Of a stretch of DNA of 64,000 nucleotides, positions 47,844-60,186 are shown one piece after another (positions within the stretch are counted from its first letter, which is position 1; each line of letters begins with the position of its first letter). The position numbers were made by a program, and so were the translations under genes. Under the pieces are notes generated by a model that ran no database searches, had not been told where the DNA came from, and worked only from the letters and a program-made list of their open reading frames with translations. The DNA is from Microbacterium sp. CSI-V. Lineage in GTDB: Bacteria; Actinomycetota; Actinomycetes; Actinomycetales; Microbacteriaceae. Location: contig NZ_MTQM01000008.1 of NCBI RefSeq assembly GCF_001984105.1, forward strand, positions 806,001 through 870,000, written 5' to 3'.

Positions 47844-49232
47844 GTGGCCGAACAGTCCCGCCTCGACAAGGTCATCTCGCTCGCTCGCCACCGCGGGTTC
47901 GTGTTCCAGGCCGGTGAGATCTACGGCGGTTCGCGTTCGGCGTGGGACTACGGCCCCCTCGGCACCGAGCTGAAGGAGAACATCCGTCGCCAGTGGTGGC
48001 AGACGTTCGTGCGCGGCCGCGGCGACATGGTGGGCCTCGACTCGAGCATCATCCTGCCCAAGCGCGTCTGGGAGGCGTCGGGCCACGTCGCGACCTTCAC
48101 CGACCCGCTGGTCGAGTGCCTGCACTGCCACAAGCGCTTCCGCTCCGACAACCTCATCGAGGACTTCGAAGCCCGCAAGGGCCGCAAGGCCGAGAACGGC
48201 CTCGCCGACATCCCGTGCCCCAACTGCGGTACGAAGGGTCAGTACACCGAGCCGAAGGCGTTCTCGGGTCTCGTGAAGACGTACCTCGGCGTCGTCGACG
48301 ACGAGTCGGGCCTGTACTTCCTGCGTCCCGAGACCGCGCAGGGCATCTTCGTGAACTTCTCCAACGTGCTCACGGCATCCCGTCGCAAGCCTCCGTTCGG
48401 CGTCGGCCAGGTGGGCAAGGCGTTCCGCAACGAGATCACCCCCGGCAACTTCATCTTCCGCACGCGCGAGTTCGAGCAGATGGAGATCGAGTACTTCACG
48501 CCCCCGGCCGAGGCGCAGGAGTGGTTCGAGCACTGGGTCGAGGCGTGCTGGAACTGGTTCGTCGACCTGGGGATCGACCCCGAGAACATGAAGCGGTTCG
48601 ACGTCCCCGAGGACGACCGCGCGCACTACTCCGCCGGCACGATCGACGTCGAGTACCGCTTCGGCTTCCCGGGCAAGGAGTGGGGCGAGCTCATGGGCGT
48701 CGCGAACCGCACCGATTACGACCTGAAGAGCCACTCGGATGCCTCGGGCTCGAGCCTCACGTACTTCGACCAGGCCTCGGGTGAGAAGTACACCCCGTAC
48801 GTCATCGAGCCGTCGTTCGGTCTCACGCGCGCGATGATGGCCTTCCTCGTCGACGCGTACCGCGAGGAAGAGGTGCCCAACGCGAAGGGCGGCACCGACA
48901 CCCGCACGGTGCTGAAGCTCGACCCGCGCCTCGCGCCGGTGAAGGCCGCCGTCCTCCCCCTGTCGCGCAACGAGCGTCTGTCGCCGCTGGCGCGCGAGGT
49001 CGCCGACACTCTGCGCGCGGCCGGCTGGAACGTCGACTTCGACGACGCCGGGGCGATCGGCCGCCGCTACCGCCGTCAGGACGAGATCGGCACGCCGTAC
49101 TGCGTCACGATCGACTTCGACTCGCTCGACGACAACGCCGTGACCGTCCGCGACCGCGACACGATGGGCCAGGAGCGCATCCCGCTCGACGGCCTGCACG
49201 CCTACCTCTCCGAGCGCCTGCGCGGCGCCTGA
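47844..49232 (+). CDS. glyS: Glycyl-tRNA synthetase (dimeric, class II)
   Basis: 462 aa. Class II motifs: [25 protein letters not shown] at the N-terminus, motif 2 [25 protein letters not shown] and motif 3 region [16 protein letters not shown], with the C-terminal anticodon-binding domain ([21 protein letters not shown]). Zinc-type pairs CLHCHKRF and CPNCGTKG are present. This is the alpha2 form, as usual in actinobacteria. GTG with GGAG upstream; a TAAACT box overlaps the end of the preceding gene. Confidence 0.96.
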
Positions 49233-49236
49233 GATC

Positions 49237-50340
49237 GTGACGGGCTCCGAGGACTTCGTCGAGATCATCCGGGCGGCCGTCGAGGCCGACCCGGGCAACG
49301 TCGGTCTGCGCGTCGACCTCGTCGAGCTGCTTCTGCAGGACCGCCTCGACGAGGCTGCGGCCGAGATCGAACAGCTCTCATCGATCGGAGCGAACGCGGC
49401 CACCGTGCTCGTGCTGAGGGCGCGGCTGGCGGCGGCGCGTCTGCGGGCGGGTCAGGTTCCGGATGCCGCGCCCCCGGTGTCCGCGGAACCCTCCGCGCCG
49501 GAGCGGCCCGCGCCGCCTGCCCCCCACATCAACGGCTCGTTCCTCCTGCCGATGCGCAATCCCGAGATGGCGCGCATGTTCGGCAAGGCTCCGCGAGGCA
49601 GCCTGTTGATGTACGGCCCACCCGGATGCGGCAAGACCTTCATCGCGCGCGCGATCGCCGGCGAGTTGGATGCCAACTTCGTCCACGCCACGCTCGCCGA
49701 CATCGTGCGGCCGCACTTCGGCGAGACCGAGCAGGCCATCCACTCGTTGTTCGAGGCCGCACGTGCCGCCCGCCCCTGCGTGGTGTTCATCGACGAGTTC
49801 GACGCCATCGGCGGGCGACGTTCGTCCGGCAGTTCCTCGGCCCAGTCGTTGCGCATGTTCACCAGTCAGCTCCTCGAGGAGTTCGACGGGGTGGATGCCG
49901 ACAACGACGGCGTCTACATCCTCGCGGCGACGAACCGCCCGTGGGACATCGATCCCGCCCTGCGCCGCCCGGGTCGCGTCGACCGCACCGTCCTCGTGCT
50001 CCCGCCCGACGAGCCCGCGAGGCGCGCGATCATCGAGATCGCTCTGCGCGACAAGCCCGCGGCATCCGTCGACGCGGGCGATCTCGCGCGGCGCACCACC
50101 GAGTTCTCCGGGGCCGACATCGCGTACATCGTCGATCAGGCCGTCGAGACCGCGTTCACGGAGTCGGTGGCCAGCGGCGTGCCGCGGATGATCGGGACGG
50201 CCGATCTGGAGCGCGCCGCCGCGCGCATCATCCCGTCCACCCGCGAGTGGTTCGAGCAGATCAAGCCGGTGCTCGAGTACGGCGTCGATGACGGAACCTT
50301 CGGCCAGCTGCGCACCTACCTCAAACGTCACCGCATCTGA
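49237..50340 (+). CDS. AAA+ ATPase with N-terminal repeat-like region (CDC48/p97-type AAA)
   Basis: 367 aa. Residues 1-65 look like a helical TPR-type hairpin pair (EIIRAAVEADPGNVGLRVDLVELLLQDRLDEAAAEI), then a Pro-rich linker. The AAA domain has Walker A MYGPPGCGKTFIARAIAGEL, Walker B VVFIDEFDAIGGRR, the second region of homology ILAATNRPWDIDPALRRPGRVDR with Arg fingers, and the sensor-2 helix SGADIAYIVDQAVETAF. Such AAA proteins remodel or unfold protein partners. It lies 4 bp after glyS and 1 bp before the TPR-membrane gene, just left of the toxin/immunity-like island. Confidence 0.88.
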   Translation: MTGSEDFVEIIRAAVEADPGNVGLRVDLVELLLQDRLDEAAAEIEQLSSIGANAATVLVLRARLAAARLRAGQVPDAAPPVSAEPSAPERPAPPAPHINGSFLLPMRNPEMARMFGKAPRGSLLMYGPPGCGKTFIARAIAGELDANFVHATLADIVRPHFGETEQAIHSLFEAARAARPCVVFIDEFDAIGGRRSSGSSSAQSLRMFTSQLLEEFDGVDADNDGVYILAATNRPWDIDPALRRPGRVDRTVLVLPPDEPARRAIIEIALRDKPAASVDAGDLARRTTEFSGADIAYIVDQAVETAFTESVASGVPRMIGTADLERAAARIIPSTREWFEQIKPVLEYGVDDGTFGQLRTYLKRHRI

Positions 50341-50341
50341 C

Positions 50342-51391
50342 ATGGCATCCCATCCCCTCGCGGAAGCGCGGCGGTACCTCGTTCTCGGGGAACCGCACAA
50401 AGCGCGGCTCATCCTCGAGCTCGTGCTGTCGCAGCATCCGGACTACGGGCCGGCCCTTCTCGTCATGTCCTACGTGCGTGTGGAGCTCGGAGATCTCGCG
50501 GCGGCCGAGCGCGACGCGCGACTGGCGCTTGCCCACCCCGAACTGCGGGCGGAAGCCGCCTCGGCACTCGCACAGATCATCGCGACGCGTGATCTCGATG
50601 AAGCGGTGACCTGGGCCGTCGAGGCCGTGAACCTGGAACCGTCGCGGTCGGAGCACCGCCTCGTGCTCGCCCGCGTGCTCCGCGAGCGCGGTGCGCTGGC
50701 GGAGGCGAGAGAACAAGCCGACGCCGGGCTGATGACCGCGGTGTCTCCGGAGGAACGCCTGCAGGCGCTGATCACCGCAGGGTCGATCGCGGTGCGTGAC
50801 CCTGGGCGGTACGGTGAGGCGCTGCTCGTCGCGCAGGACGCGGTCCGGATCGACCCGACCGATGCGGTCGCGACGCAGTTGCTCGCCACCGCTCAGATGG
50901 TGGCCGGGCGGCGAGCCGAGGCCGCGGCGACCGCGTTGCGGGTCCTCCGCGAGAATCCGCTCGCACGGTTGCCGCCCTATCTGGCGCAGCTGTCAGTCGC
51001 GATGCTCCTACGCCGACTGCTCGGCTGTGTCGCCGTCGTCGCGGTCCTCACCGCCGGGTTCGGGCTGGGGAGTCTGAGCGAGCCGTATCTCGGGCAGATC
51101 GGTCCACGCGTGGCCGCCGCGATCGGAGCGTTCGCCATCGGCGTTCTGACTGCGGTCGTGCTAGGGCCGCTCCGTGATCGTGCGACGGCTCGCGCGGTAT
51201 GGCTGTTCGCACGGCGACGGAGGATCGAAGTCGTCTCTGCCGCCACCGTCGTCGTCATCTTCCTCGGCTACATCGTGACAGCGGTGACGGGCCTTCTCGC
51301 TCCTCTGGGACTCGCGCCCCTGGTCTCCCTGGTGGTCTGGACCGTCCACGAGGTGAAGCTCAACGGATTGCGGATGCCGACGCCTCGCTGA
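50342..51391 (+). CDS. TPR-repeat membrane protein
   Basis: 349 aa. The N-terminal 215 residues are TPR-like helical repeats (AEARRYLVLGEPHKARLILELVLSQHPDYGPAL and similar). Then come about four membrane helices (LLGCVAVVAVLTAGFGLGSL, AAAIGAFAIGVLTAVVLGPL, VVSAATVVVIFLGYIV, LLAPLGLAPLVSLVVWTV). The TPR part would face the cytoplasm and could dock the AAA ATPase encoded one base upstream. Partners unknown. The last gene before the composition change at about 51.48 kb. Confidence 0.82.
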   Translation: MASHPLAEARRYLVLGEPHKARLILELVLSQHPDYGPALLVMSYVRVELGDLAAAERDARLALAHPELRAEAASALAQIIATRDLDEAVTWAVEAVNLEPSRSEHRLVLARVLRERGALAEAREQADAGLMTAVSPEERLQALITAGSIAVRDPGRYGEALLVAQDAVRIDPTDAVATQLLATAQMVAGRRAEAAATALRVLRENPLARLPPYLAQLSVAMLLRRLLGCVAVVAVLTAGFGLGSLSEPYLGQIGPRVAAAIGAFAIGVLTAVVLGPLRDRATARAVWLFARRRRIEVVSAATVVVIFLGYIVTAVTGLLAPLGLAPLVSLVVWTVHEVKLNGLRMPTPR

Positions 51392-51410
51392 GGCGCGGCG
51401 TCAGCCGCGT

Positions 51411-51482
51411 CCGTCGGGCGCCAGGTCGTGGGCGATCCCACCCGAGACCGCGGCCAGGGCGGCGATCACGGACTCCGTGGGC
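51411..51482 (-). pseudogene. Possible 3' remnant of a minus-strand gene at the island edge
   Basis: On the minus strand the frame ESVIAALAAVSGGIAHDLAPDGRG then stop reads like normal high-G+C coding sequence, but no gene body exists upstream because the composition changes abruptly at about 51,482. It may be the tail of a gene cut by insertion of the island. The evidence is slight. Confidence 0.25.
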
Positions 51483-51905
51483 GGTTTTGTTGCTCGATTG
51501 CAGGATGTCGCTCATCTTCGGGATTCGCAGGCTGTTTTCAGCGGTCTCCGCCTTGACTACCAATCGTCTCCGTTCCATTCGCTTCTCGACGGCCCGATCC
51601 AGATGATTCGATATCGGCGGGAAGCGGGCACTCTCGAAGTACCCTTCGATGAATTTGTCGCCGGTCACCCCACGGGTTTCACCGACCTGGACCCGTTCAC
51701 GGGTAAGGGGTATACAGCGTCTGGGATACCGATTCGCGATGGAGATCTCATCCCCGCGTTCTATGCCTCCCGCGGCACGCGGATGCAGACGGGGGCGGAG
51801 ATGTGGGAAGTGACACCAGGAGGGACATACCGGATGCTCGCAATCCTCGATGACCTCACCGGAGGATGGGTCTCGGTAGGTGGATGGAAGCCGGACCTCC
51901 CGTGA
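51477..51905 (+). CDS. Immunity-like protein, probably 5'-truncated
   Basis: Up to 142 aa, with no RBS before the GTG at 51477, so the true start is uncertain and the 5' end may be lost at the island boundary. The C-terminal part YTASGIPIRDGDLIPAFYAS, then AEMWEVTPGGTYRMLAILDDLTGGWVSVGGW, resembles LRTGLVPVWDIAATVV and AEIWRIFADGHQDLVASYGGPAIGWRGS in the 52348 gene, so they are paralogues. Lower G+C than flanking genes. The stop overlaps the next start (TGATG). Confidence 0.55.
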   Translation: MGGFVARLQDVAHLRDSQAVFSGLRLDYQSSPFHSLLDGPIQMIRYRREAGTLEVPFDEFVAGHPTGFTDLDPFTGKGYTASGIPIRDGDLIPAFYASRGTRMQTGAEMWEVTPGGTYRMLAILDDLTGGWVSVGGWKPDLP

Positions 51906-52351
51906 TGGTGCGCGAATTGCATCAGCGTGGGATGTTCGCTTTCGTCGACGATGTCGAGGTGCCGATCATCGGGTCGGGAAGCGCGGGAACAGGAGGTACC
52001 CCGGTGGACTGGGTGACCATTCCCCGCGTATGTCTGCCCCCCGGATGGGCGCCGCTACCTGCCGACGATGTGCCGGGGGCGCCAAACGTCAGGATCCGGC
52101 GCTCATCGGTGCGTGATGTGCGCCTCTGGGACTGGTACGCCCTGTTCGACGGCGAGTGGTGCTGGGTGGGAAACGTTCGCGAGGGGCAACTCCTCATCCA
52201 GGCCGGGCCTTCCGCAGCATCGTCTGATCCCTCGTGGGAGGGGAACGTGAGAGACGGCTGGCATCGCTGGGTGAACATCGATGACGTCGAGGTGGAGTCG
52301 CGATGGCAACCGGTTGTCACTGCGGCGGGAGAGGCCGGGACCACTCAGTGA
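51905..52351 (+). CDS. Immunity-like protein, paralogue of the 54316 gene
   Basis: 148 aa. The stretch VRDVRLWDWYALFDGEWCWVGNVREG ... SDPSWEGNVRDGWHRWVNIDDVEVESRWQPVV matches VRDVRSWQWYVLYGGEWWWVGSVRDG ... SDPAWEGHRNDGWHLWVPADQLEMEARSEPLV in the 54316 gene. The N-terminal LHQRGMFAFVDDVEVPIIG motif also recurs in both. Trp-rich, soluble, no catalytic motif. Start and stop overlap both neighbours (TGATG, GTGA), so expression is coupled. Family not recognised; immunity role inferred from context. Confidence 0.7.
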   Translation: MVRELHQRGMFAFVDDVEVPIIGSGSAGTGGTPVDWVTIPRVCLPPGWAPLPADDVPGAPNVRIRRSSVRDVRLWDWYALFDGEWCWVGNVREGQLLIQAGPSAASSDPSWEGNVRDGWHRWVNIDDVEVESRWQPVVTAAGEAGTTQ

Positions 52352-53157
52352 CGCCGATGCAGAAGCTCATCTGGCCAGCGGCTGAGAAAGCCTATCTGGA
52401 GCACGGGGACTCTCTTCTCGTCGGTCCTGCGGTTCGTATCGGCGACGCGGTTCAATGGCGCACGCCCGGCCAAGTGCTTGCGGCATACGGCATATCGGAC
52501 CCGGCAACGCCGTTCGTCGATGTCCTCCGATTTGCGCCGACGCCCCTGACTCGCGTGTCCATCCCGCGGGTCGGAGACCCCACATCGGTCGCCGGCTACG
52601 CCACGGGTTACCTCCGCACGGGCCTCGTGCCCGTCTGGGACATTGCGGCAACGGTGGTGCCGCGCGACGCGGAGATCTGGCGGATCTTCGCCGACGGACA
52701 CCAGGACCTCGTGGCCTCCTACGGCGGACCCGCCATCGGTTGGCGCGGCAGCACCGTCTTTGCTCCGCCCACTATGCTCGTCGGCCCTCGAGCGGAATGG
52801 GGTGGTCGGGAGTGGCACGTCTCGTGGGTCGATGACGCTCAGGTGGAGCTGGTGACTCTGAGTGATGTGCCCATCGAAGGATGCGTGCAGACGCGACCAT
52901 ACGTCTACAGCCGCGTGGTCGACGCCTCGTCTTGCACACGCATGTTCGAACTGGGGTTCACCGCCCGATGGGGCGATGTCGAGTGCGTGCTGCTGCAGTC
53001 GAACAACGAAGACACGGCTGTCCTGCTCTCGACCGATGCGGCCACGGCCGCAGAGGTCGGTGCGACAATCCTCGAGCCCGGCGTGTTCTGGCACCTCGTC
53101 CCGAGCGACGAGGTGAGCGACATCCAAGCGATCCAGCGGGAGCTCCCGCGCGGGTGA
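52348..53157 (+). CDS. Two-part immunity-like protein
   Basis: 269 aa. The first part (about 70-150) is related to the 51477 protein. The second contains RMFELGFTARWGDVECVLLQ and FWHLVPSDEVSDIQ, echoing the G-F/L-x5-E-V/I-P-L-L and V-x-x-x-x-V-x-D-V/I pattern of the 51905 and 54316 proteins. It therefore looks like a fusion of the two modules that are separate genes upstream. No catalytic residues are evident. The GTG start overlaps the previous stop (GTGA). Confidence 0.65.
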   Translation: MTPMQKLIWPAAEKAYLEHGDSLLVGPAVRIGDAVQWRTPGQVLAAYGISDPATPFVDVLRFAPTPLTRVSIPRVGDPTSVAGYATGYLRTGLVPVWDIAATVVPRDAEIWRIFADGHQDLVASYGGPAIGWRGSTVFAPPTMLVGPRAEWGGREWHVSWVDDAQVELVTLSDVPIEGCVQTRPYVYSRVVDASSCTRMFELGFTARWGDVECVLLQSNNEDTAVLLSTDAATAAEVGATILEPGVFWHLVPSDEVSDIQAIQRELPRG

Positions 53158-53159
53158 GA

Positions 53160-53216
53160 CCGCTGCGCGAAGTGTGTGAGGAGTTGAACCATGACCGATG
53201 GTCTCGGGCGTCTGCG
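53160..53216 (+). pseudogene. Duplication scar: 3' end of a 53241-like gene plus 5' end of an ART-like gene
   Basis: This stretch is nearly identical to 53790-53846. One frame reads PLREVCEELNHD, like PRLREVYEELNRD at the end of the 53241 gene; an overlapping ATG frame reads MTDGLGRLRE, like the start of the 53821 gene (TDGPGRLED). It then runs into the RBS of the 53241 gene. This is what remains of an earlier copy of the two-gene unit after deletion. Confidence 0.8.
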
Positions 53217-53240
53217 TGAGATCCCTACTCCAGGAGCACA

Positions 53241-53828
53241 ATGAACTCTTCGCAATATGTCGACGACGTCGCAATCGCCCTATACGACTCGATGAGCTCC
53301 GAACTCCTCGCAAGTTACGGGGGCGGCGTGAGTATTGCGAAGTTCCTGGGCGAGCTCGACGACGACGGGGCGCGGCAGTCGTGGTCGACCCGAATCTCGC
53401 GGGAGCTCGCCGAACTCCCGCCGAATGCGCTGAACAGCCTCGTCATCTATCAGGGCTCCGCGGCGGTGAGCGTGTCGAATGAGGTGGTAGCGAGATTCGG
53501 GCTGGGTGAGGTGACGGTGTCGATCTCCGGAGACGATGTCTGGGAGGCGGCCTTGCGTCCCGGTTTCAGCGTCGCGATCATCGCTGGTCTCGGCTGGAGC
53601 CGCTGGGGTCAACGGTGGGTGGACGAACTTCGACATGTGGGCCTGAGGCGGGGCCCGATCGTTGATATAGGGGACGGCCGTGCGCTGCACTGGGTCGCTC
53701 AGCGTCCCGACGAACCCGGGCCGTGGACCTGTGCGCGTTCTGCGGAGGGCGCGGCTCTCATCAGTGATGCGGAGTCGCTGGGGACCCCGCGCCTGCGGGA
53801 AGTGTATGAGGAGTTGAACCGTGACTGA
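53241..53828 (+). CDS. Unknown protein, first gene of a duplicated unit
   Basis: 195 aa, soluble, acidic. N-terminus NSSQYVDDVAIALYDSMSSE, then LAELPPNALNSLVIYQGSAAVSVSNEVVARFGLGEVTVSISGDDVWEAAL and WSRWGQRWVDELRHVGLRRG. AGGAG precedes the ATG. The stop overlaps the ART gene by 8 bp, so both are translated together. It could be the cognate immunity protein or an accessory part of the transferase, but no family is recognised. Confidence 0.7.
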   Translation: MNSSQYVDDVAIALYDSMSSELLASYGGGVSIAKFLGELDDDGARQSWSTRISRELAELPPNALNSLVIYQGSAAVSVSNEVVARFGLGEVTVSISGDDVWEAALRPGFSVAIIAGLGWSRWGQRWVDELRHVGLRRGPIVDIGDGRALHWVAQRPDEPGPWTCARSAEGAALISDAESLGTPRLREVYEELNRD

Positions 53829-54267
53829 TGGTCCTGGGCGTCTGGAGGACGCCCTCGCGAAATTGCCGATCTTCCGCGGTGTGGTGTGGAGGGGGGCGGG
53901 CTTCGAGCTGACGACGCCGTTCACCCTGCAGGCGCCTCTTCCCACGTCGAAGGATGCGCGGGTGGCGTCCGAGAACTTCCGCGCTCCCTCCCTTCACGCG
54001 ATCGTCTCGGTTTCGGGACGCGAGATCGGGCCGCTCTCCCGTCACCCCGCGGAGGCCGAGGTTGCGCTCCTTCCAGGGTCCACGCTCACCCCGGCCACCG
54101 GGGTGCATCTCGTCGGGGGATTCAGCGTGCAAGTCGTGAGGGAGGTATCCCCGAGCGGGGAAATCGCCCCCATGGTCTCGGACGACGACCTGGCACTCAT
54201 ACTCGAGGCGGCTCGCTTTGCACCTCCGGTCGACATCGCGAGCCCGGGCCGCTTCTTCGCCGAGTGA
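53821..54267 (+). CDS. ADP-ribosyltransferase-fold protein (polymorphic-toxin-type domain)
   Basis: 148 aa. It shows the R-S-E layout of arginine-type ADP-ribosyltransferases: LEDALAKLPIFRGVVWRGAG (first strand with the NAD-binding Arg), PLPTSKDARVASENF (the S-T-S strand, here P-T-S, with the following V-A-x-x-F), and SRHPAEAEVALLPGSTL (the ARTT-loop E-x-E). The N-terminal helical lobe of full toxins is absent, so it may be a compact or truncated toxin. GTG at 53821. No signal or trafficking domain. Target unknown. This is the only gene in the island with a recognisable catalytic signature. Confidence 0.75.
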   Translation: MTDGPGRLEDALAKLPIFRGVVWRGAGFELTTPFTLQAPLPTSKDARVASENFRAPSLHAIVSVSGREIGPLSRHPAEAEVALLPGSTLTPATGVHLVGGFSVQVVREVSPSGEIAPMVSDDDLALILEAARFAPPVDIASPGRFFAE

Positions 54268-54315
54268 AGTCGACGAGGGAGAGCGCGTCCGCTGGGCGGG
54301 GCGGAGCTGAAGACC

Positions 54316-54762
54316 GTGACCGGTGAGGGGTTGCATCCGCGGGGTCTGTTCGGGCGTATCTGGGGCCATGAGATTCCTCTGCTCTCCATGGGCGAGGCGG
54401 GCCTATTCGACGCGCCGGTTGGCTGGGTCTCGCTAGACCGAGAGCACCTCCCTCGCGGTACCGCCACCCTCCCCCATTCCGGGCTCTCGGGCGCATCGAC
54501 GGTCATGGTCGACCGCGAACTGGTTCGAGACGTCCGATCCTGGCAGTGGTACGTCCTCTACGGCGGTGAGTGGTGGTGGGTCGGGAGCGTCCGAGACGGC
54601 GATGTCCTCATCCACACGGACTCGGCGCTTGTCGCGGCGTCCGATCCGGCGTGGGAGGGGCATAGAAATGACGGCTGGCACCTATGGGTCCCCGCGGACC
54701 AGCTCGAAATGGAGGCTCGATCCGAGCCCCTGGTCGATCCTCGTGGGCCTGGTATGGAATGA
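54316..54762 (+). CDS. Immunity-like protein, paralogue of the 51905 gene
   Basis: 148 aa, the same length as its paralogue. N-terminal LHPRGLFGRIWGHEIPLLSMG parallels LHQRGMFAFVDDVEVPIIG, and the Trp-rich second half is strongly alike (see the 51905 entry). GTG at 54316 with GGAG upstream, 48 bp after the ART gene. Being directly downstream of the transferase gene, it is a candidate for its immunity protein. No enzyme motif. Confidence 0.7.
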   Translation: MTGEGLHPRGLFGRIWGHEIPLLSMGEAGLFDAPVGWVSLDREHLPRGTATLPHSGLSGASTVMVDRELVRDVRSWQWYVLYGGEWWWVGSVRDGDVLIHTDSALVAASDPAWEGHRNDGWHLWVPADQLEMEARSEPLVDPRGPGME

Positions 54763-54805
54763 GTCGCGTTGCGCGCCATGGGGGCCACGACAGGAAGGAA
54801 TGCCG

Positions 54806-55162
54806 ATGCGAGAGCCGCAATCCAACACTCCAGCGCTCGACCTGGCTAAGGAGGTCGCTTCGTCGCTGAGGCACTACTTCGGCGACCGGGTGACCGCGCT
54901 GGGGATCAGCAACGTTATCAACGATCGCAATCACGTGGAGTTCTCAGTCCGGTTCGAGGCCTACAGCTTCTTCCTCATCATCTTCAACTACGACCGCGGG
55001 TCCTTCGGGTTCGGCATCGTCTACGGGGACGGAGCCGTTGGGGTCGAACCGCAACACGGTCAGTGGGCTCCGTTCCGCGAATTCGAACGTGTCCTGGCGC
55101 AACTGGACCAGGAGCTCCGGCTCCGAATCCCCGACAAGTACCTGGATGCCAAGGGGTGGTAA
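54806..55162 (+). CDS. Small immunity-like protein, unknown
   Basis: 118 aa. N-terminal helix (SNTPALDLAKEVASSLRHYFG), a beta-rich middle (HVEFSVRFEAYSFFLIIFNYDRGSFGFGIVYGDG) and a C-terminal helix (FREFERVLAQLDQELRLRIPDKYLD). Length and layout are typical of immunity proteins but no family is recognised. ATG at 54806 has AGGAAGGA at good spacing; an ATG two codons earlier is too close to it. Last gene of the island, 22 bp before palindrome F. Confidence 0.65.
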   Translation: MREPQSNTPALDLAKEVASSLRHYFGDRVTALGISNVINDRNHVEFSVRFEAYSFFLIIFNYDRGSFGFGIVYGDGAVGVEPQHGQWAPFREFERVLAQLDQELRLRIPDKYLDAKGW

Positions 55163-55184
55163 GCCGTTCCGGGCACTACCCCCG

Positions 55185-55251
55185 CGAGACTGCATCCGCC
55201 TGACACCCCCATTGCAGGCTGCCGCGGTCTCGTCAGCGGCATGCAGTCTCG
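55185..55251. repeat. 67-bp intergenic palindrome, copy F
   Basis: Outer arms CGAGACTGCAT... and ...ATGCAGTCTCG (11 bp perfect), with TGAC / GTCA at the arms' inner ends (55201-55204, 55232-55235). Same family as copy G at 60079-60145, aligning without gaps. It marks the right edge of the toxin/immunity-like island and the left edge of the exporter/SARP module. Confidence 0.87.
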
Positions 55252-55288
55252 GCGAATCGCACTGCCCCGCCCCCACCCCGCCGCGGCC

Positions 55289-55341
55289 CTGACAGCGCCG
55301 TGACAGCACCACCCCCGCCGTGACAGCGGCGCGACAGAGCC
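55289..55341 (+). promoter_or_regulatory. SARP-type operator: four 11-bp units with TGACAGC heptads
   Basis: TGACAGC occurs at 55290, 55301 and 55321 and a variant CGACAGA at 55332, giving steps of 11, 20 and 11 bp. A CATCCT -10 box (55349-55354) follows 10 bp after the last heptad, and the ATG lies 6 nt further. Heptads on an 11-bp (one-turn) period just upstream of -10 are the hallmark of SARP binding sites. Confidence 0.75.
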
Positions 55342-55360
55342 CGCGGCGCATCCTGTCGTC

Positions 55361-56371
55361 ATGACCACCTCATCCACCCGCGTTCCCGCGGTGCGAGCCG
55401 AAGGGCTCGTCAAGACGTTCGGCTCGAACAGGGCCGTCGACGGCGTCGACCTCGTCGTCGAAGCCGGGACCGTCTACGGCGTTCTCGGCCCCAACGGTGC
55501 CGGCAAGACCACCACCATCAGCATGCTCACGACGCTGCTGCGTCCCGACGGCGGGCGGGCCGAGATCTTCGGCCACGACGTCGTCAAGGACGCGCACATC
55601 GTCCGGCAGCTCATCGGCCTCACGGGGCAGTTCGCCTCGGTCGACGAGAAGCTCTCGGCCACCGAGAACCTCATCATCTTCGCGCGCCTGCTCGGCCTGT
55701 CGCGGGCCGATGCCCGCCGCAAGTCGACCGAGCTCCTCGAGGAGTTCGGCCTCACCGAGGCGGCATCCAGGCCCCTGGCGAAGTTCTCCGGAGGCATGCG
55801 GCGCCGGCTCGACCTCGCGGCATCCCTCATCGCCCAACCGCCGCTCATCTTCCTCGACGAGCCGACGACGGGCCTCGACCCCCGCACCCGCGGACAGATG
55901 TGGGACACGATCCGGCGGCTGGTCTCGACCGGCTCCACCGTCGTGCTCACCACGCAGTACCTCGACGAGGCCGACCAGCTCGCCGACCGCATCGCCGTGA
56001 TCGACCGCGGACGCGTCGTCGCCGAGGGCACGGCGCTCGAGCTCAAGGCATCCGTCGGTCAGGCGTCGCTGGTGCTGCGCCTGCAGCCGGGCTCCGACCT
56101 CGAGGTCGCCCGCGCCACCATCGCGCGCGTCCTGGATGCCACGGCCGTCGTTTCTCCGGAGGCGGCGCGCCTCACGGTGCCGATGTCCGACCCCGACGAG
56201 GTCACCGACCTGCTCGTGGCGTTCCGCGCGGCCGGCGTGCACCTGAGCGAGTTCAGCGTGCAGCAGCCGACCCTCGACGAGGTGTTCCTCACGCTCACCG
56301 GCAGCGGAGTGCCGGCCGACGACGACGCGGCGCGCGAAAACGCCGCCGACCTGGAAGGAGTCCGCTCATGA
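55361..56371 (+). CDS. ABC exporter ATP-binding protein (DrrA-like)
   Basis: 336 aa. Walker A GVLGPNGAGKTTTISML, Q-loop GLTGQFASVDEKLSATENL (typical of daunorubicin-resistance DrrA), signature KFSGGMRRRLDLAASL, Walker B LIFLDEPTTGLDP, switch region VVLTTQYLDEADQLADRIAVI and the DrrA C-terminal extension (FSVQQPTLDEVFLTLTG). It energises an efflux pump with the coupled permease. Substrate unknown, probably a hydrophobic or antibiotic-like compound. Likely leaderless and activated by the SARP regulator. Confidence 0.93.
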   Translation: MTTSSTRVPAVRAEGLVKTFGSNRAVDGVDLVVEAGTVYGVLGPNGAGKTTTISMLTTLLRPDGGRAEIFGHDVVKDAHIVRQLIGLTGQFASVDEKLSATENLIIFARLLGLSRADARRKSTELLEEFGLTEAASRPLAKFSGGMRRRLDLAASLIAQPPLIFLDEPTTGLDPRTRGQMWDTIRRLVSTGSTVVLTTQYLDEADQLADRIAVIDRGRVVAEGTALELKASVGQASLVLRLQPGSDLEVARATIARVLDATAVVSPEAARLTVPMSDPDEVTDLLVAFRAAGVHLSEFSVQQPTLDEVFLTLTGSGVPADDDAARENAADLEGVRS

Positions 56372-57171
56372 CCGCGATCACGATTCCGCGCGACCTGCCG
56401 CACACCGCGGGGCTCGGGCAGACGTTCCGCAACACCCTGACGATGGCCTGGCGCGGTCTTCTGAAGATCCGCCGCACCCCCGAGCAGCTCATCGACGTCA
56501 CGGTGCAGCCGATCCTCTTCACCCTGATGTTCACGTACATCTTCGGCGGCGCGATCGCCGGTGACGTCGCGAGCTACCTGCCGATCATCATCCCCGGCAT
56601 CCTCGTGCAGACCGTCATCACGACCTCGGTCGTGACGGGCGTGCAGCTGCGCGAAGACATGGACAAGGGCGTATTCGACCGGTTCCGGTCGCTCCCGATC
56701 GCGCGCATCGCGCCGCTGTCGGGAGCGCTGCTCGCCGACACCGTGCGGTACGCGATCGCCACGACTTTGACGTTCACGATGGGCTTCATCATGGGCTTCC
56801 GGCCCGAGGGCGGCCTCGGAGCGGTCGTGCTCGCCGGCATCCTGGTCATCGTCTGCTCGTGGGCGATCAGCTGGATCTTCGCGTTCTTCGGCGTGATCGC
56901 GCGGACCGCGTCGAGCGTGCAGGGCGTGTCGATCCTGATCCTGTTCCCGCTGACGTTCCTCTCGAACGCCTTCGTGCCCTCGAACACGATGCCCTCGTGG
57001 CTGCAGTGGTTCGTCGACATCAACCCGGTGTCGCACCTGGTCACCGCGGTCCGTGACCTCGTGAACTCCGGGACGCTCGGCTCGGACGCCGTCCTGTCGC
57101 TGGTCGGTGCGGCCGTCATCGTGGCGGTGTTCGCGCCTCTGACGGTGCGCGCCTACATGCGGAAGGCCTAG
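56368..57171 (+). CDS. ABC-2 exporter permease (DrrB-like)
   Basis: 267 aa, six helices. Signature segments LKIRRTPEQLIDVTVQPILFTLMFTYIFGGAI, REDMDKGVFDRFRSLPIARIAPLSGALLADTVRY (the ABC-2 motif) and LTFLSNAFVPSNTMPSWLQWFVDINPVSHLVTAVRDL. ATG overlaps the ATPase stop (ATGA). Its TAG stop shares a CTAG palindrome with the stop of the convergent regulator gene. Confidence 0.92.
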   Translation: MTAITIPRDLPHTAGLGQTFRNTLTMAWRGLLKIRRTPEQLIDVTVQPILFTLMFTYIFGGAIAGDVASYLPIIIPGILVQTVITTSVVTGVQLREDMDKGVFDRFRSLPIARIAPLSGALLADTVRYAIATTLTFTMGFIMGFRPEGGLGAVVLAGILVIVCSWAISWIFAFFGVIARTASSVQGVSILILFPLTFLSNAFVPSNTMPSWLQWFVDINPVSHLVTAVRDLVNSGTLGSDAVLSLVGAAVIVAVFAPLTVRAYMRKA

Positions 57172-59999
57172 TCGAGCAGCGCCAGGAGCACGTCGGCATC
57201 CACTTCTCCCAGAGGGATGCCGGGCGCGGATGCCGGAGCCTCTCCGGTGTCCGCGCTCAGGCGTTCGTCGACCCAGCGCCGGAACGGATCGCGTTCGTCC
57301 GCCGCGCCGCGGACGGCTTCGGCCCGGGCCAGCGCTTCGCGCGCGACGTCGGGGCGGCCCGACGCGGCGCTCCATCCGGCGACGGCGACGAGGACGGCCG
57401 CGACGATCGGGTGGTCGTGCGACCGGACCGCGAGGGGCAGCGCTTCCCGGAGGGCGGCGCGGGACTCATCGAGGCGGTCGAGGAGGATGAGCGCTTGCGC
57501 GCCCTGCGCGCCGGCCCACGCCGTGATCTGGTCGGGGAATCCCGGTTCGAGGCGGATCGCCTGTGACTGGCGCAGAGCCGCCGCGCCGTCTCCCGCCGAG
57601 ATCTCGACCTGGGCCGCCGCCATCCGCGCCTGGGACAGGGCGCGGACCGAGCCGTCGGCGGCGGCGACCGTCTCCATCTCGACCGCGCGCGTCCGTGCCT
57701 CGTCGAGCCGGCCGAGCCGGAGCAGGATGCCGACGGACTGCGCCCGCATCTGCAGGAGGTCGGACACCGACGACAGGCCGTCCACGATCCGCGCGGCGTC
57801 GTCGCTCACGACCAGTGCATCCTCGAGTCGACCCGCGAGGATGAGCCACTCGGACCGCAGCTGACTGGCGATGCCCGTGCCCCACGGGTCTCCCACCTCG
57901 GTGAAGAGGCGCAGCGCCCGCTCGCTCTCGACGCCGAGGGCCGCCGCGTCGCCGGCGTTCTGCGCGGCGCCGGCGCGCAGCATGTGGAGCGTCGCCCGCG
58001 ACCACGGGGGCGTCGACGTGATCTCGTCGTCCGTGACATCGACGTGCCACGCGCGGCCGGCCGGTGAGCCGTGCGCCTGCAGCACGGTCTCGGCGAGGCG
58101 GAGGAGCGGGGCCACCAGGACGGTGATCTCGGAGGGATGACGCGGTGCCGCCTGTTCGAGCGCGCGGCGCCGTGCCCGGAATCGCGCGGGATCGAACGTC
58201 GGAGTCTCGCCCGGCTCGGGGAAGGAGGCCGAGAACAGCGCGAGCGACTCGATCACGACGCTCGGCTCGTCGTCGAGCGGAGCGTCCGGATCGGCGAAGG
58301 CCGCGAGAGCGGGGCGCAGTTCCTCGACGCGTTCGCGCACCGCCCACGCCCAGAGCAGCGCGCGCAGCAGACGCCGGCCCGGTCGCCGGTCCGGGCCGAC
58401 CGTGCGCGTGCGCAGCGCGGACGACAGGTTCTCCTCGTTGGCGTCGAACCACGCGAGCCCGGCCCGCAGGCCCGGTCCGCGCATCGTGCTCTCGCGGTCG
58501 GCGGCGAGGACGGTGAGCACGTCGGCCGCGCGTTCGCGGAACCCGGTCTCGGCGCCCTCGGCGCGCAGCCGGTCGAGCCCGTACTCGCGGACCGTCTCGA
58601 GCAGCCGGAACCGTCCGTCGCGCCGCACGAGCAGGGAGCGGTCCACGAGGGCGTCGAACACCGTGGCATCCACCCCGAAGGCGCCGGCGATCGCGTCGGC
58701 GTCGCCGCTGCCGATCCCGTCGGGGAACACCGACGACGCGCGCAGAGCTACCCGCTCGGCGTCGGTGAGGGTGTCCCAGCTCCAGTCGATGAGGGCGCGG
58801 AGCGTCCGGTGGCGGCCGGGGCTGAGGCGCGGACCGTTCGCGAGCAGCGCGAAGCGGTCGCTGAGGCCCGCGTCGATCTCGGCGAGCGTGAGGGTGCGGG
58901 CACGGGCCGCGGCCAACTCGATCGCGAGGGGGAGGCCGTCGAGGCGCTGCACGATGCTCGCGGCCGTCTCGCGCTCGTCGGGGGAGGGCGGGATGCCGCG
59001 TGCCGAGCGGACGCGCCGGGCGAACAGCTCGTCGGCGTCGAGGGCGGGCAGGGGGCCGAGATCGACGAAGGCTTCGCCGACGACGCCCAGCGGCTCGCGG
59101 CTCGTCGCGAGGATCCGCAGGTCCGGCGTGCGGAGGAGCAGCGTCTGTGCGACTTCGGCGGCCTCACGGATCACGTGCTCGCAATTGTCGAGGACGACGA
59201 CCACGTCGCGCCCGGCGACGGCCTCGAGCACGCGCTCGCGCGGCGACATCGGCGGGGTCGTGGTCGTCTCGTTCAGCCGGATGCCGTGTCCGACAGCGCC
59301 TGCGAGAGCGCCCCAGACCTCTCCGGCGGCGGCCGGCGCGAGCTCGACGACCAGGACGTCGGGGGTGGCGCGCACGGTCTCGAGCGCGAGCGTGGTCTTG
59401 CCGGCGCCACCCGGTCCGATGATCGTGACGAGGCGGTCGGTGCCGAGGCGGTCGCGGATCGCCCCCAGCTCGGCCGCGCGACCGACGAGCCCGGCGATCG
59501 CGGCGGGGACCCTCGCGGCCTCCGGGGCGGGGGGAGGGGATGCCACCACCAGACGTTCCGCGTGGCCGCGGTCCTGCCAGAGATCGCGCACGAGCCAGTC
59601 GAAGCCGTCGTGCGGGATCCACGGGTCGCCGGTCCACAGCGCGAGCGCGTCGCGGGCGAGGGCGGAGTCGCCGTCCGCGCGCGCCGCGGCGACGAGATCC
59701 TGGAACCGCGTGATGTCGACGGCGTCGCGCGCGAGGTCGAGCCGGTAGCCGCCCGGAACCGACGCGAGCATCCCGTCGGGGAGGGCCCGGCGCAGGCGGG
59801 ATGCGAGCGACTGCAGAGCGGCGCGGGGATCCTCCGGGGAGTCGGCGGGCCAGACGTCGTCGGCGAGGGCCCGGTATCCGACAGTGGTCCCGGCGTCGAC
59901 GGCGAGACGCAGCAGCAGCGCCTGCTGCCCGCGTCCGGGGATCGCTCCCTCGTCCGCGCCCGACGACACGGAGAGGCCGCCGAAGAACCTCACCTGCAC
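57168..59999 (-). CDS. SARP/AfsR-type regulator with NB-ARC ATPase
   Basis: 943 aa. Order: OmpR-type winged HTH (1-90; RFFGGLSVSSGADEGAIPGRGQQALLLRLAV ... YRALADDVWP), a shortened bacterial transcriptional activation region (about 93-150), an NB-ARC-type ATPase with P-loop IIGPGGAGKTTLAL (195-202) and Walker B VVVVLDNCEHV, then GLPLAIELAAARARTL and a winged-helix segment, and a long TPR-like C-terminal half. Such proteins activate efflux or secondary-metabolite genes. It faces the DrrAB-like exporter, whose promoter holds SARP-type repeats. GTG at 59999 with TAGAGT 7 nt upstream. Confidence 0.88.
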   Translation of the reverse strand: MQVRFFGGLSVSSGADEGAIPGRGQQALLLRLAVDAGTTVGYRALADDVWPADSPEDPRAALQSLASRLRRALPDGMLASVPGGYRLDLARDAVDITRFQDLVAAARADGDSALARDALALWTGDPWIPHDGFDWLVRDLWQDRGHAERLVVASPPPAPEAARVPAAIAGLVGRAAELGAIRDRLGTDRLVTIIGPGGAGKTTLALETVRATPDVLVVELAPAAAGEVWGALAGAVGHGIRLNETTTTPPMSPRERVLEAVAGRDVVVVLDNCEHVIREAAEVAQTLLLRTPDLRILATSREPLGVVGEAFVDLGPLPALDADELFARRVRSARGIPPSPDERETAASIVQRLDGLPLAIELAAARARTLTLAEIDAGLSDRFALLANGPRLSPGRHRTLRALIDWSWDTLTDAERVALRASSVFPDGIGSGDADAIAGAFGVDATVFDALVDRSLLVRRDGRFRLLETVREYGLDRLRAEGAETGFRERAADVLTVLAADRESTMRGPGLRAGLAWFDANEENLSSALRTRTVGPDRRPGRRLLRALLWAWAVRERVEELRPALAAFADPDAPLDDEPSVVIESLALFSASFPEPGETPTFDPARFRARRRALEQAAPRHPSEITVLVAPLLRLAETVLQAHGSPAGRAWHVDVTDDEITSTPPWSRATLHMLRAGAAQNAGDAAALGVESERALRLFTEVGDPWGTGIASQLRSEWLILAGRLEDALVVSDDAARIVDGLSSVSDLLQMRAQSVGILLRLGRLDEARTRAVEMETVAAADGSVRALSQARMAAAQVEISAGDGAAALRQSQAIRLEPGFPDQITAWAGAQGAQALILLDRLDESRAALREALPLAVRSHDHPIVAAVLVAVAGWSAASGRPDVAREALARAEAVRGAADERDPFRRWVDERLSADTGEAPASAPGIPLGEVDADVLLALLD

Positions 60000-60078
60000 G
60001 GTGTTCACTCTAGGTCGCGCGGCGTCCCGGCCGGGCGACCGCCGGAGTGCCGGGGCGCGCGGCGGGGCGCCCGACCCG

Positions 60079-60145
60079 CGGGACTGCATCCGCGTGACGA
60101 ACCCACGGCAGCGTGCCGTGGCTTTGTCAGCCGGATGCAGTCTCG
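60079..60145. repeat. 67-bp intergenic palindrome, copy G
   Basis: Outer arms share GACTGCATCCG / CGGATGCAGTC with TGAC / GTCA inside, and inner arms CCACGGCA / TGCCGTGG (60102-60109, 60113-60120). Gap-free alignment with copy F at 55185. It lies between the SARP gene promoter and the LacI gene end. Confidence 0.88.
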
Positions 60146-60186
60146 GCGATGCGGCGACCGGGGTCGGCGACCCGGCCCGCACCGCG

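Follow-up and report, generated by a model that had tools for sequence, protein, structure and literature searches.

What connects an AfsR-like regulator with the exporter genes that it faces, and would it switch them on or off? This question is raised by a locus of Microbacterium sp. CSI-V (NCBI RefSeq assembly GCF_001984105.1, contig NZ_MTQM01000008.1, positions 806,001 to 870,000 of the forward strand), a stretch of 64,000 nucleotides hereafter called the window, in which four heptads of the TGACAGC type stand directly upstream of the DrrAB-type exporter genes and a regulator gene converges on drrB. Here, we argue that the two quite probably form a two-part exporter-control module, in which the neighboring regulator would activate drrAB through the heptads, these being very probably its landing site as judged from their conservation.

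The heptad array and its conservation

The elements of the locus on which the argument leans are the following.

55290 to 55296, + strand: heptad 1 of pair 1, TGACAGC; found by reading and pattern search, conserved
55301 to 55307, + strand: heptad 2 of pair 1, TGACAGC, step of 11 bp; found by reading and pattern search, conserved
55321 to 55327, + strand: heptad 3 of pair 2, TGACAGC, step of 20 bp; found by reading and pattern search, conserved
55332 to 55338, + strand: heptad 4 of pair 2, CGACAGA, step of 11 bp; degenerate (5/7), YGACAG or TGACGG in relatives
55349 to 55354, + strand: putative -10 box CATCCT, 10 bp past heptad 4 and 6 nt 5' of the ATG
55361 to 56371, + strand: drrA, exporter ATPase, 336 aa; ABC_tran and DrrA1-3_C, TIGR01188 above cut-off
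56368 to 57171, + strand: drrB, ABC-2 type permease, 267 aa; ABC2_membrane, 4-nt overlap with drrA
57168 to 59999, - strand: regulator gene, likely starting at the GTG at 59999 (943 aa)
60007 to 60012, - strand: putative -10 box of the regulator, TAGAGT, 7 nt 5' of the GTG at 59999; no heptads upstream

A preliminary description of the locus, made from its letters, had read TGACAGC repeats with steps of 11, 20 and 11 bp, the last of them 10 bp before the CATCCT box; both readings are exact, the fourth copy being the degenerate CGACAGA. Its wording of four one-turn-spaced heptads holds for the two 11-bp steps and not for the middle one, which at 20 bp is about two turns and neither 11 nor 22 bp, and the 11-bp period of known SARP sites that it had quoted fails at the same place. 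As a single word, TGACAGC is no more frequent in the window than expected by chance (7 copies against 7.01). The pattern YGACAGNNNNNYGACAG, by comparison, has four matches in the 3.7-Mb genome (one in the backwards control), two of these falling in the drrA array and the other two being lone pairs; a genome-wide pattern search for a second array or a wider regulon found none beyond the drrA locus, which is also the outcome of the search for other TGACAGC arrays that the preliminary description had proposed.

The regulator was searched in 366 Microbacterium genomes at E <= 1e-60 and found in 62, the window's own included. Sixty further loci of the window's type, with an orthologous regulator (type A), were taken, one per genome, five loci without the drrA 5' end being replaced by longer stretches and the 62nd genome (G111, a weak match) being handled with the diverged group. 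Of the 60 loci, 59 have drrB convergent to the regulator; in the 60th (G358) drrAB lies about 7.4 kb off, convergent and with its array intact. Defined as two copies that start 10 or 11 bp apart and lie no more than 165 nt upstream of the start codon, heptad pairs were found in 60 of the 61 type A promoters, against 0/61 stretches at -300 to -165 and 0.1% of shuffles, and the only miss (L171) has copies spaced 20-21 bp. The steps counted in type A were 11 bp (113) and 20 bp (54). In an alignment of 52 of these promoters, for which heptad 4 and the -10 box served as anchor, the columns of heptads 1-3 mostly reach 1.0-2.0 bits, and those of the long spacer and the upstream sequence mostly stay below 1. 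The idea had been exposed from the start to a check on whether the repeats are conserved in orthologous promoters that keep the regulator, and with pairs in all but one of them it survives.

The immediate flanks of the array are less constant. Among four near genomes compared, homology to the window begins at 55283 in a genome of the same species (G184) and at 55287 in G315, that is 7 and 3 bp before heptad 1, and extends upstream to 55177 and 54825 in the other two. In G315 the module lies directly behind a stretch matching 48174-49232, presumably of a glycyl-tRNA synthetase gene, with the flanking blocks within about 160 bp, whereas about 6 kb of other DNA parts the two in the window. A three-heptad pattern, searched in the 366 genomes, was present in 42 (backwards pattern, 9), and 39 of these 42 carry the type A regulator, compared with 62/366 overall; it lies inside 38 type A promoters, the remaining match of the 39, in G085, being on another contig. 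For G260, one of the three array genomes without that regulator, the match looks like chance. In the second of these three (L249, genome G004) an array stands before a drrA-like start that matches the window's drrA over only about 48 residues on a 4.1-kb stretch at a contig end, and the exporter there is perhaps broken or divergent. Gene matches in two pieces and different frames were also seen in L126 (drrA), L172 and L178 (both regulator), possibly frameshifted or mis-assembled.

The promoter into which the heptads are set is a poor one. Its -10 box is CANNNT, lying exactly 10 bp past a heptad in 53 of the 61 type A promoters (other gaps of 4-17 bp, 0-5/61), which is the gap of the window and does not agree with the SARP-like spacing of about 8 bp that had been presumed; the first base is C in 52/53. 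At 16-19 bp from it, the best -35 match is at most 3/6 in 52/53 and 5/6 in one, which is not above shuffles. A promoter with a poor -10 box and no -35 element beyond shuffles fits an activator. The box is found 6-7 nt 5' of the ATG in 28 of the 55 type A promoters measured (loci L119-L178) and at 13 to 47 nt in the others, many of these with an AGAAAGG-like ribosome site; the predicted transcripts of type A drrA alternate between leaderless and leadered forms across loci, and in the clade of the window the drrA start is likely leaderless. On the 5' side of the regulator itself, no heptad pair was found within 200 nt in any of 60 loci (0/60), and autoregulation through heptads at that promoter was rejected on this ground; in 21/60 a TANNNT box precedes a start codon by 6-7 nt (shuffles, 1.3%).

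Do the heptads depend on the exporter or on the regulator beside it? Relatives of DrrB at E <= 1e-50 were found in 104 of the 366 genomes, 61 of type A, 35 of type B, 2 of type C and 6 distant. Type B loci combine a close exporter with a diverged AfsR-like regulator nearby in 34/35 cases (best segments 32-46% identical), and heptad pairs precede drrA in 34/35, against 0/35 upstream stretches, the miss (L230) showing TGTCAG copies by eye; their steps are 11 bp (61) and 10 bp (38). Both type C loci have a pair (2/2), made of two TGAAAG copies 11 bp apart. Before distant drrA genes, which have no such regulator for a neighbor, no pair was found at any of the six testable loci (0/6; seven distant loci in all). 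For types A and B together the upstream control stretches give 0/96, and shuffles 0.1-0.2%. The tie between heptads and neighboring regulator that the preliminary description had drawn is thus upheld, by conservation in type A, absence from all six distant exporters and the single genome occurrence of the array.

The same arrangement recurs in other Microbacteriaceae, with the array present in 3/3 loci of Homoserinibacter, Cryobacterium and Subtercola. A family sample of 398 genomes gave the regulator at E <= 1e-90 in 21, 19 of them outside Microbacterium; 18 of these 19 loci were used, one being cut by a contig end, and they may overlap the loci of the three genera just named. The genes are convergent in 18/18 and heptad pairs precede drrA in 17/18, mostly as a triple with steps of 10 and 11 bp; the miss (L264) has altered copies at 11-bp steps, by eye. 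Upstream of the drrA of L280 (G731) stand nine heptad-like TGACAG matches with steps of 6, 10 and 16 bp, as if grown by duplication.

A regulator with half a BTA domain

The domains of the regulator are given below with residues counted from an alternative in-frame GTG start at 60008, which would give 946 aa.

59739 to 59999, - strand: OmpR-type winged-helix DNA-binding domain, residues 4-90; from the predicted structure and matches to AfsR and EmbR
59541 to 59717, - strand: three-helix BTA remnant, residues 98-156, with BTA helices 4-7 absent; from the predicted structure and superposition
59139 to 59441, - strand: P-loop part of an NB-ARC/STAND ATPase, residues 190-290; AAA_22 match
57312 to 57500, - strand: TPR match, residues 837-899; Pfam

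The protein consists of an OmpR-type domain, the first half of a BTA domain (three of seven helices), NB-ARC and TPR, and is not a full SARP. Its earlier naming as an AfsR/SARP-type regulator is therefore right for the AfsR-like N-terminus, the AAA/NB-ARC part and the TPR, and wrong for the BTA domain, which stops after the first half. In Pfam, AAA_22 and TPR_12 score above cut-off and NB-ARC below it, which gives the C-terminal half expected of a large SARP. Trans_reg_C is weak and under cut-off in the window protein, and matches 57/57 proteins of the type A set at E <= 1. For BTAD (PF03704), the window protein gave no match at E up to 10, and the type A set gave matches in 41/57 at E <= 1, the best at 5e-6. 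Since these matches seemed to speak against a loss of the domain, ten type A or other Microbacteriaceae members were rescanned: BTAD was matched in 8/10, always from profile position 1 to 41-65 of 146, and L139 and L042 exceed the Pfam cut-off on the first half alone. In the type B/C set BTAD is matched in 32/32, over the full 1-146 of 146 in L213.

The structure, predicted for residues 1-178 only and from 47 sequences, has a pLDDT (predicted local distance difference test) of 91.4 and consists of a winged helix, three more helices and then a linker. Foldseek returns AfsR as the best match (E 1.1e-8), and the model superposes on AfsR 23-194 over 159 residues (Z 19.1, 2.6 A), while its superposition on EmbR 8-187 has a Z of 19.6; structural matches below these owe their scores to the winged helix alone, and no conclusion was taken from them. 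The equivalents of the DNA-contacting residues of AfsR are kept, including R71 and S67, which correspond to the AfsR base contacts R92 and T88, as mapped by reading of the alignments. The distance from the wing to the P-loop has a median of 119 residues in type A (62/67 measured), is 115-124 in Homoserinibacter, Cryobacterium and Subtercola, 196 in type B (22/34 measured) and 198-274 in 26 of the 27 measured relatives of other families (74 in all), the exception being L095 with 45 and an unsure start. The shorter distance in type A agrees with the missing second half of the BTA domain.

This loss bears on how the protein could act. In AfsR the BTA domain comprises residues 120 to 270; sigma region 4 is seated on its helices 3-7, and residues between 240 and 263 face the C-terminal domain of the RNA polymerase alpha subunit, alphaCTD (PMC10936776; this and the other papers cited by PMC number are covered in part). 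Most of the sigma region 4 seat and the alphaCTD face lie past AfsR 194 and, according to the structural model, are missing from the window regulator. Against the AfsR family model NF053617 the regulator reaches 72.1 bits for a cut-off of 1430, and it is thus not AfsR proper. Compared with what defines a SARP system, the OmpR-type domain and the heptameric direct repeats are present and a complete BTA domain is not; the 3' repeat stands 10 bp from the -10 box instead of 8, and since the heptamer register differs between authors, these 2 bp may not matter.

Proposed activation and its rivals

The array with its conservation and single occurrence, the convergent pairing and the half BTA domain are given by sequence or structure prediction, and from these we infer binding, activation, cooperativity, signal and substrate as follows. 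The regulator would be made constitutively from its own heptad-free and probably leaderless promoter, and its NB-ARC/TPR part would hold it off until a signal, presumably a compound that the exporter handles, arrives and ATP binds, as AfsR is gated by ATP (PMC10936776). Once released, its OmpR-type domains would settle pairwise on the heptads. The heptad pair closest to the -10 box would then substitute for the missing -35 element, as AfsR does at afsS, and recruit RNA polymerase to the poor CANNNT box, whereupon drrAB would be made. The second pair lies 31 bp upstream, about three turns, and thus on the same face of the DNA, where it may add cooperativity. Because BTA helices 4-7 are gone, the contacts with polymerase must come from elsewhere: those with sigma region 4, beta flap and beta' could be provided either by the OmpR-type domain together with the BTA remnant or by the NB-ARC/TPR part.

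Several observations weigh against this proposal. The missing half of the BTA domain holds contacts that AfsR needs for activation (PMC10936776), which would make the regulator an unusual activator, and the gap to the -10 box is 10 bp where the literature has 8. The array layout may follow the regulator type, but layout and type have switched jointly only two to three independent times, too few to show it. One type B locus (L231) has heptads and no regulator match within 7.3 kb, and in the stretch taken from the third array genome without the type A regulator (L250, genome G023) a complete array with a CACTCT -10 box stands without any drrA match; here the exporter has probably been lost and its promoter has remained.

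The main rival is repression, given that known activator contacts are lost with the second half of the BTA domain; we consider it unlikely, though with a real share of the probability. A half-BTA protein would bind the heptads, block the drrA promoter and leave on ligand; the loss of the alphaCTD face and of most of the sigma region 4 seat agrees with this, as does the position of the array, which spans the -35 region and would block polymerase. The promoter itself, with its C-initial CANNNT box and its -35 match of at most 3/6 in 52/53 cases, seems too weak to need a repressor, and sites of this kind also precede the related exporters of the type B loci, whose regulators have a full BTA domain.

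Still less probable, at the level of a slim chance, is that the heptads are read by a protein encoded elsewhere and that the neighboring regulator is a bystander, for which the regulator-free heptads of L231 could be quoted. The concentration of three-heptad genomes among those with the type A regulator speaks against such a reader, as do the SARP-like heptads, which match the regulator type, and the constancy with which the array stays with the gene pair despite differing flanks and, in some loci, genes inserted between. That the array is a set of chance repeats or a neutral tandem repeat, as the background frequency of the single word could suggest, has a next to negligible probability and is refuted by its conservation in 60 of 61 promoters with diverged flanks (about 0.1% in shuffles, 0/61 in upstream controls), by heptad columns that exceed the spacers (heptad 4 and the -10 box being the anchor) and by its single occurrence in the genome.

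Known relatives and a possible exporter module of actinobacteria

SARP repeats are described as 11 or 22 bp apart with 8 bp from the 3' repeat to the -10 box (PMC10936776) and as having spacers of 4-15 nt (PMC10972967). The large SARP AfsR of Streptomyces coelicolor (8HVR, 8JKE, 8K60) shares with the window regulator the OmpR-type domain, NB-ARC, TPR and DNA-contact residues, and at the afsS promoter, with a CACTGT -10 box, a poor -35 element and repeats over the spacer (PMC10936776), its 11-bp direct repeats lie between a missing -35 and a poor -10 element as they do here before CATCCT; the differences are the BTA domain cut after three helices, the heptad TGACAGC, the two pairs 31 bp apart, and a target that is an exporter and not afsS. 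PimR, a SARP-LAL of Streptomyces natalensis, binds heptamers with 3- or 4-nt spacers, that is 10- and 11-bp steps, and needs two of them (PMC5930380), such steps being mixed also in the type B and other-genera arrays; in the parts covered, it differs in activating the regulator gene of a polyene cluster, in its C-terminal half and in its heptad CGGCAAG. EmbR of Mycobacterium tuberculosis (2FEZ, 2FF4) has the fold of the OmpR-type domain and first BTA helices, but with a full BTA domain, an FHA domain and other targets (PMC10936776, in part). As for exporters, that of the rishirilide cluster is under a MarR repressor and not a SARP in the portion of PMC7917814 covered.

With the DrrAB of the daunorubicin producer, the exporter shares DrrA1-3_C, an ATPase and a permease in one operon, and a DrrA of TIGR01188, to which it scores 356.9 bits for a cut-off of 312.45, as its naming as DrrA-like had implied; DrrB scores under the cut-offs of TIGR00025 and the drrB models, and no biosynthetic gene was found among the nine neighboring open reading frames scanned between 50.3 and 63.9 kb. 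The earlier placement of the locus outside a biosynthetic cluster holds for those nine frames. Searches of open-licence papers in PubMed Central listed none on the module or on a BTA-truncated SARP. The site logic and the fold are already known; as far as searched, the dedicated pairing with an exporter and the half BTA domain are new.

The module, whose converging genes share positions 57168-57171 in their stop codons, is bordered on both sides (55183-55256 and 60075-60150) by a palindromic element some 70 bp long, inside which a second palindrome is nested. Related copies stand at no fewer than five other places of the genome, and the element resembles a dispersed repeat of the repetitive extragenic palindromic (REP) or miniature inverted-repeat transposable element (MITE) kind. 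A composite mobile unit flanked by the palindromes was rejected on account of these other copies, and the same-species genome G184, without a match to 54267-55283, also speaks against it. Upstream, about 49300-55180 is a variable stretch between the synthetase-like reading frame and the module, and four small open reading frames in it (51866-55159) have no Pfam match.

How far does the module reach? Among 74 relatives of the regulator from other families, 36 have a drrA-type match in their flank, which in all but one case (35) lies on the opposite strand, and TGNCRG-type heptad chains precede the other-family drrA genes with readable 5' ends in 22/35 (at least two heptads) and 15/35 (at least three), against 0/34 upstream controls and 1.4% of shuffles for at least two. 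A prediction of at least three linked heptads was fixed beforehand for 39 new loci from a phylum sample, which may overlap the first 74 and some of which ended early at contig ends. Seven of the 39 had a readable drrA 5' end; 7/7 were convergent, 3/7 had at least three linked heptads and 4/7 at least two, and controls gave 0/7. In the other three of the seven, 11-bp repeats of a changed heptad were seen by eye and not counted. Outside Microbacteriaceae the fixed motif is not matched in about half of the promoters, and no such exporter lies near many of the relatives. The module as predicted from these promoters extends beyond Microbacteriaceae, with a drifting heptad sequence.

Placed on a tree of the exporters with 125 rows, the five classes show 7 changes, compared with 56.5 in shuffles. 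That type A exporters form one clade is weakly rejected (approximately unbiased test, p 0.031; an earlier tree had already shown the group as split), and switches of regulator class among exporters are likely. The 20-bp signature is found in 51/61 type A and 8/35 type B promoters, and the four type B cases inspected are 10+10 steps with a heptad between. The convergent pair of DrrAB and AfsR-like regulator with its heptad array could be an old actinobacterial module, whose Microbacteriaceae form would need no more than the OmpR-type domain and three-helix remnant to activate from two stacked pairs of sites, as a minimal SARP sigma adaptation; we put this forward tentatively, its chances being somewhat below even.

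In the literature covered, SARP activators figure as switches of Streptomyces antibiotic clusters, and here their site logic would be dedicated to one exporter. The Microbacteriaceae regulators can be regarded as natural deletion variants of the activation domain, which may tell which AfsR contacts activation needs. Heptads before drrA together with a regulator converging on drrB also make a simple rule, by which exporters with likely sensors may be found.

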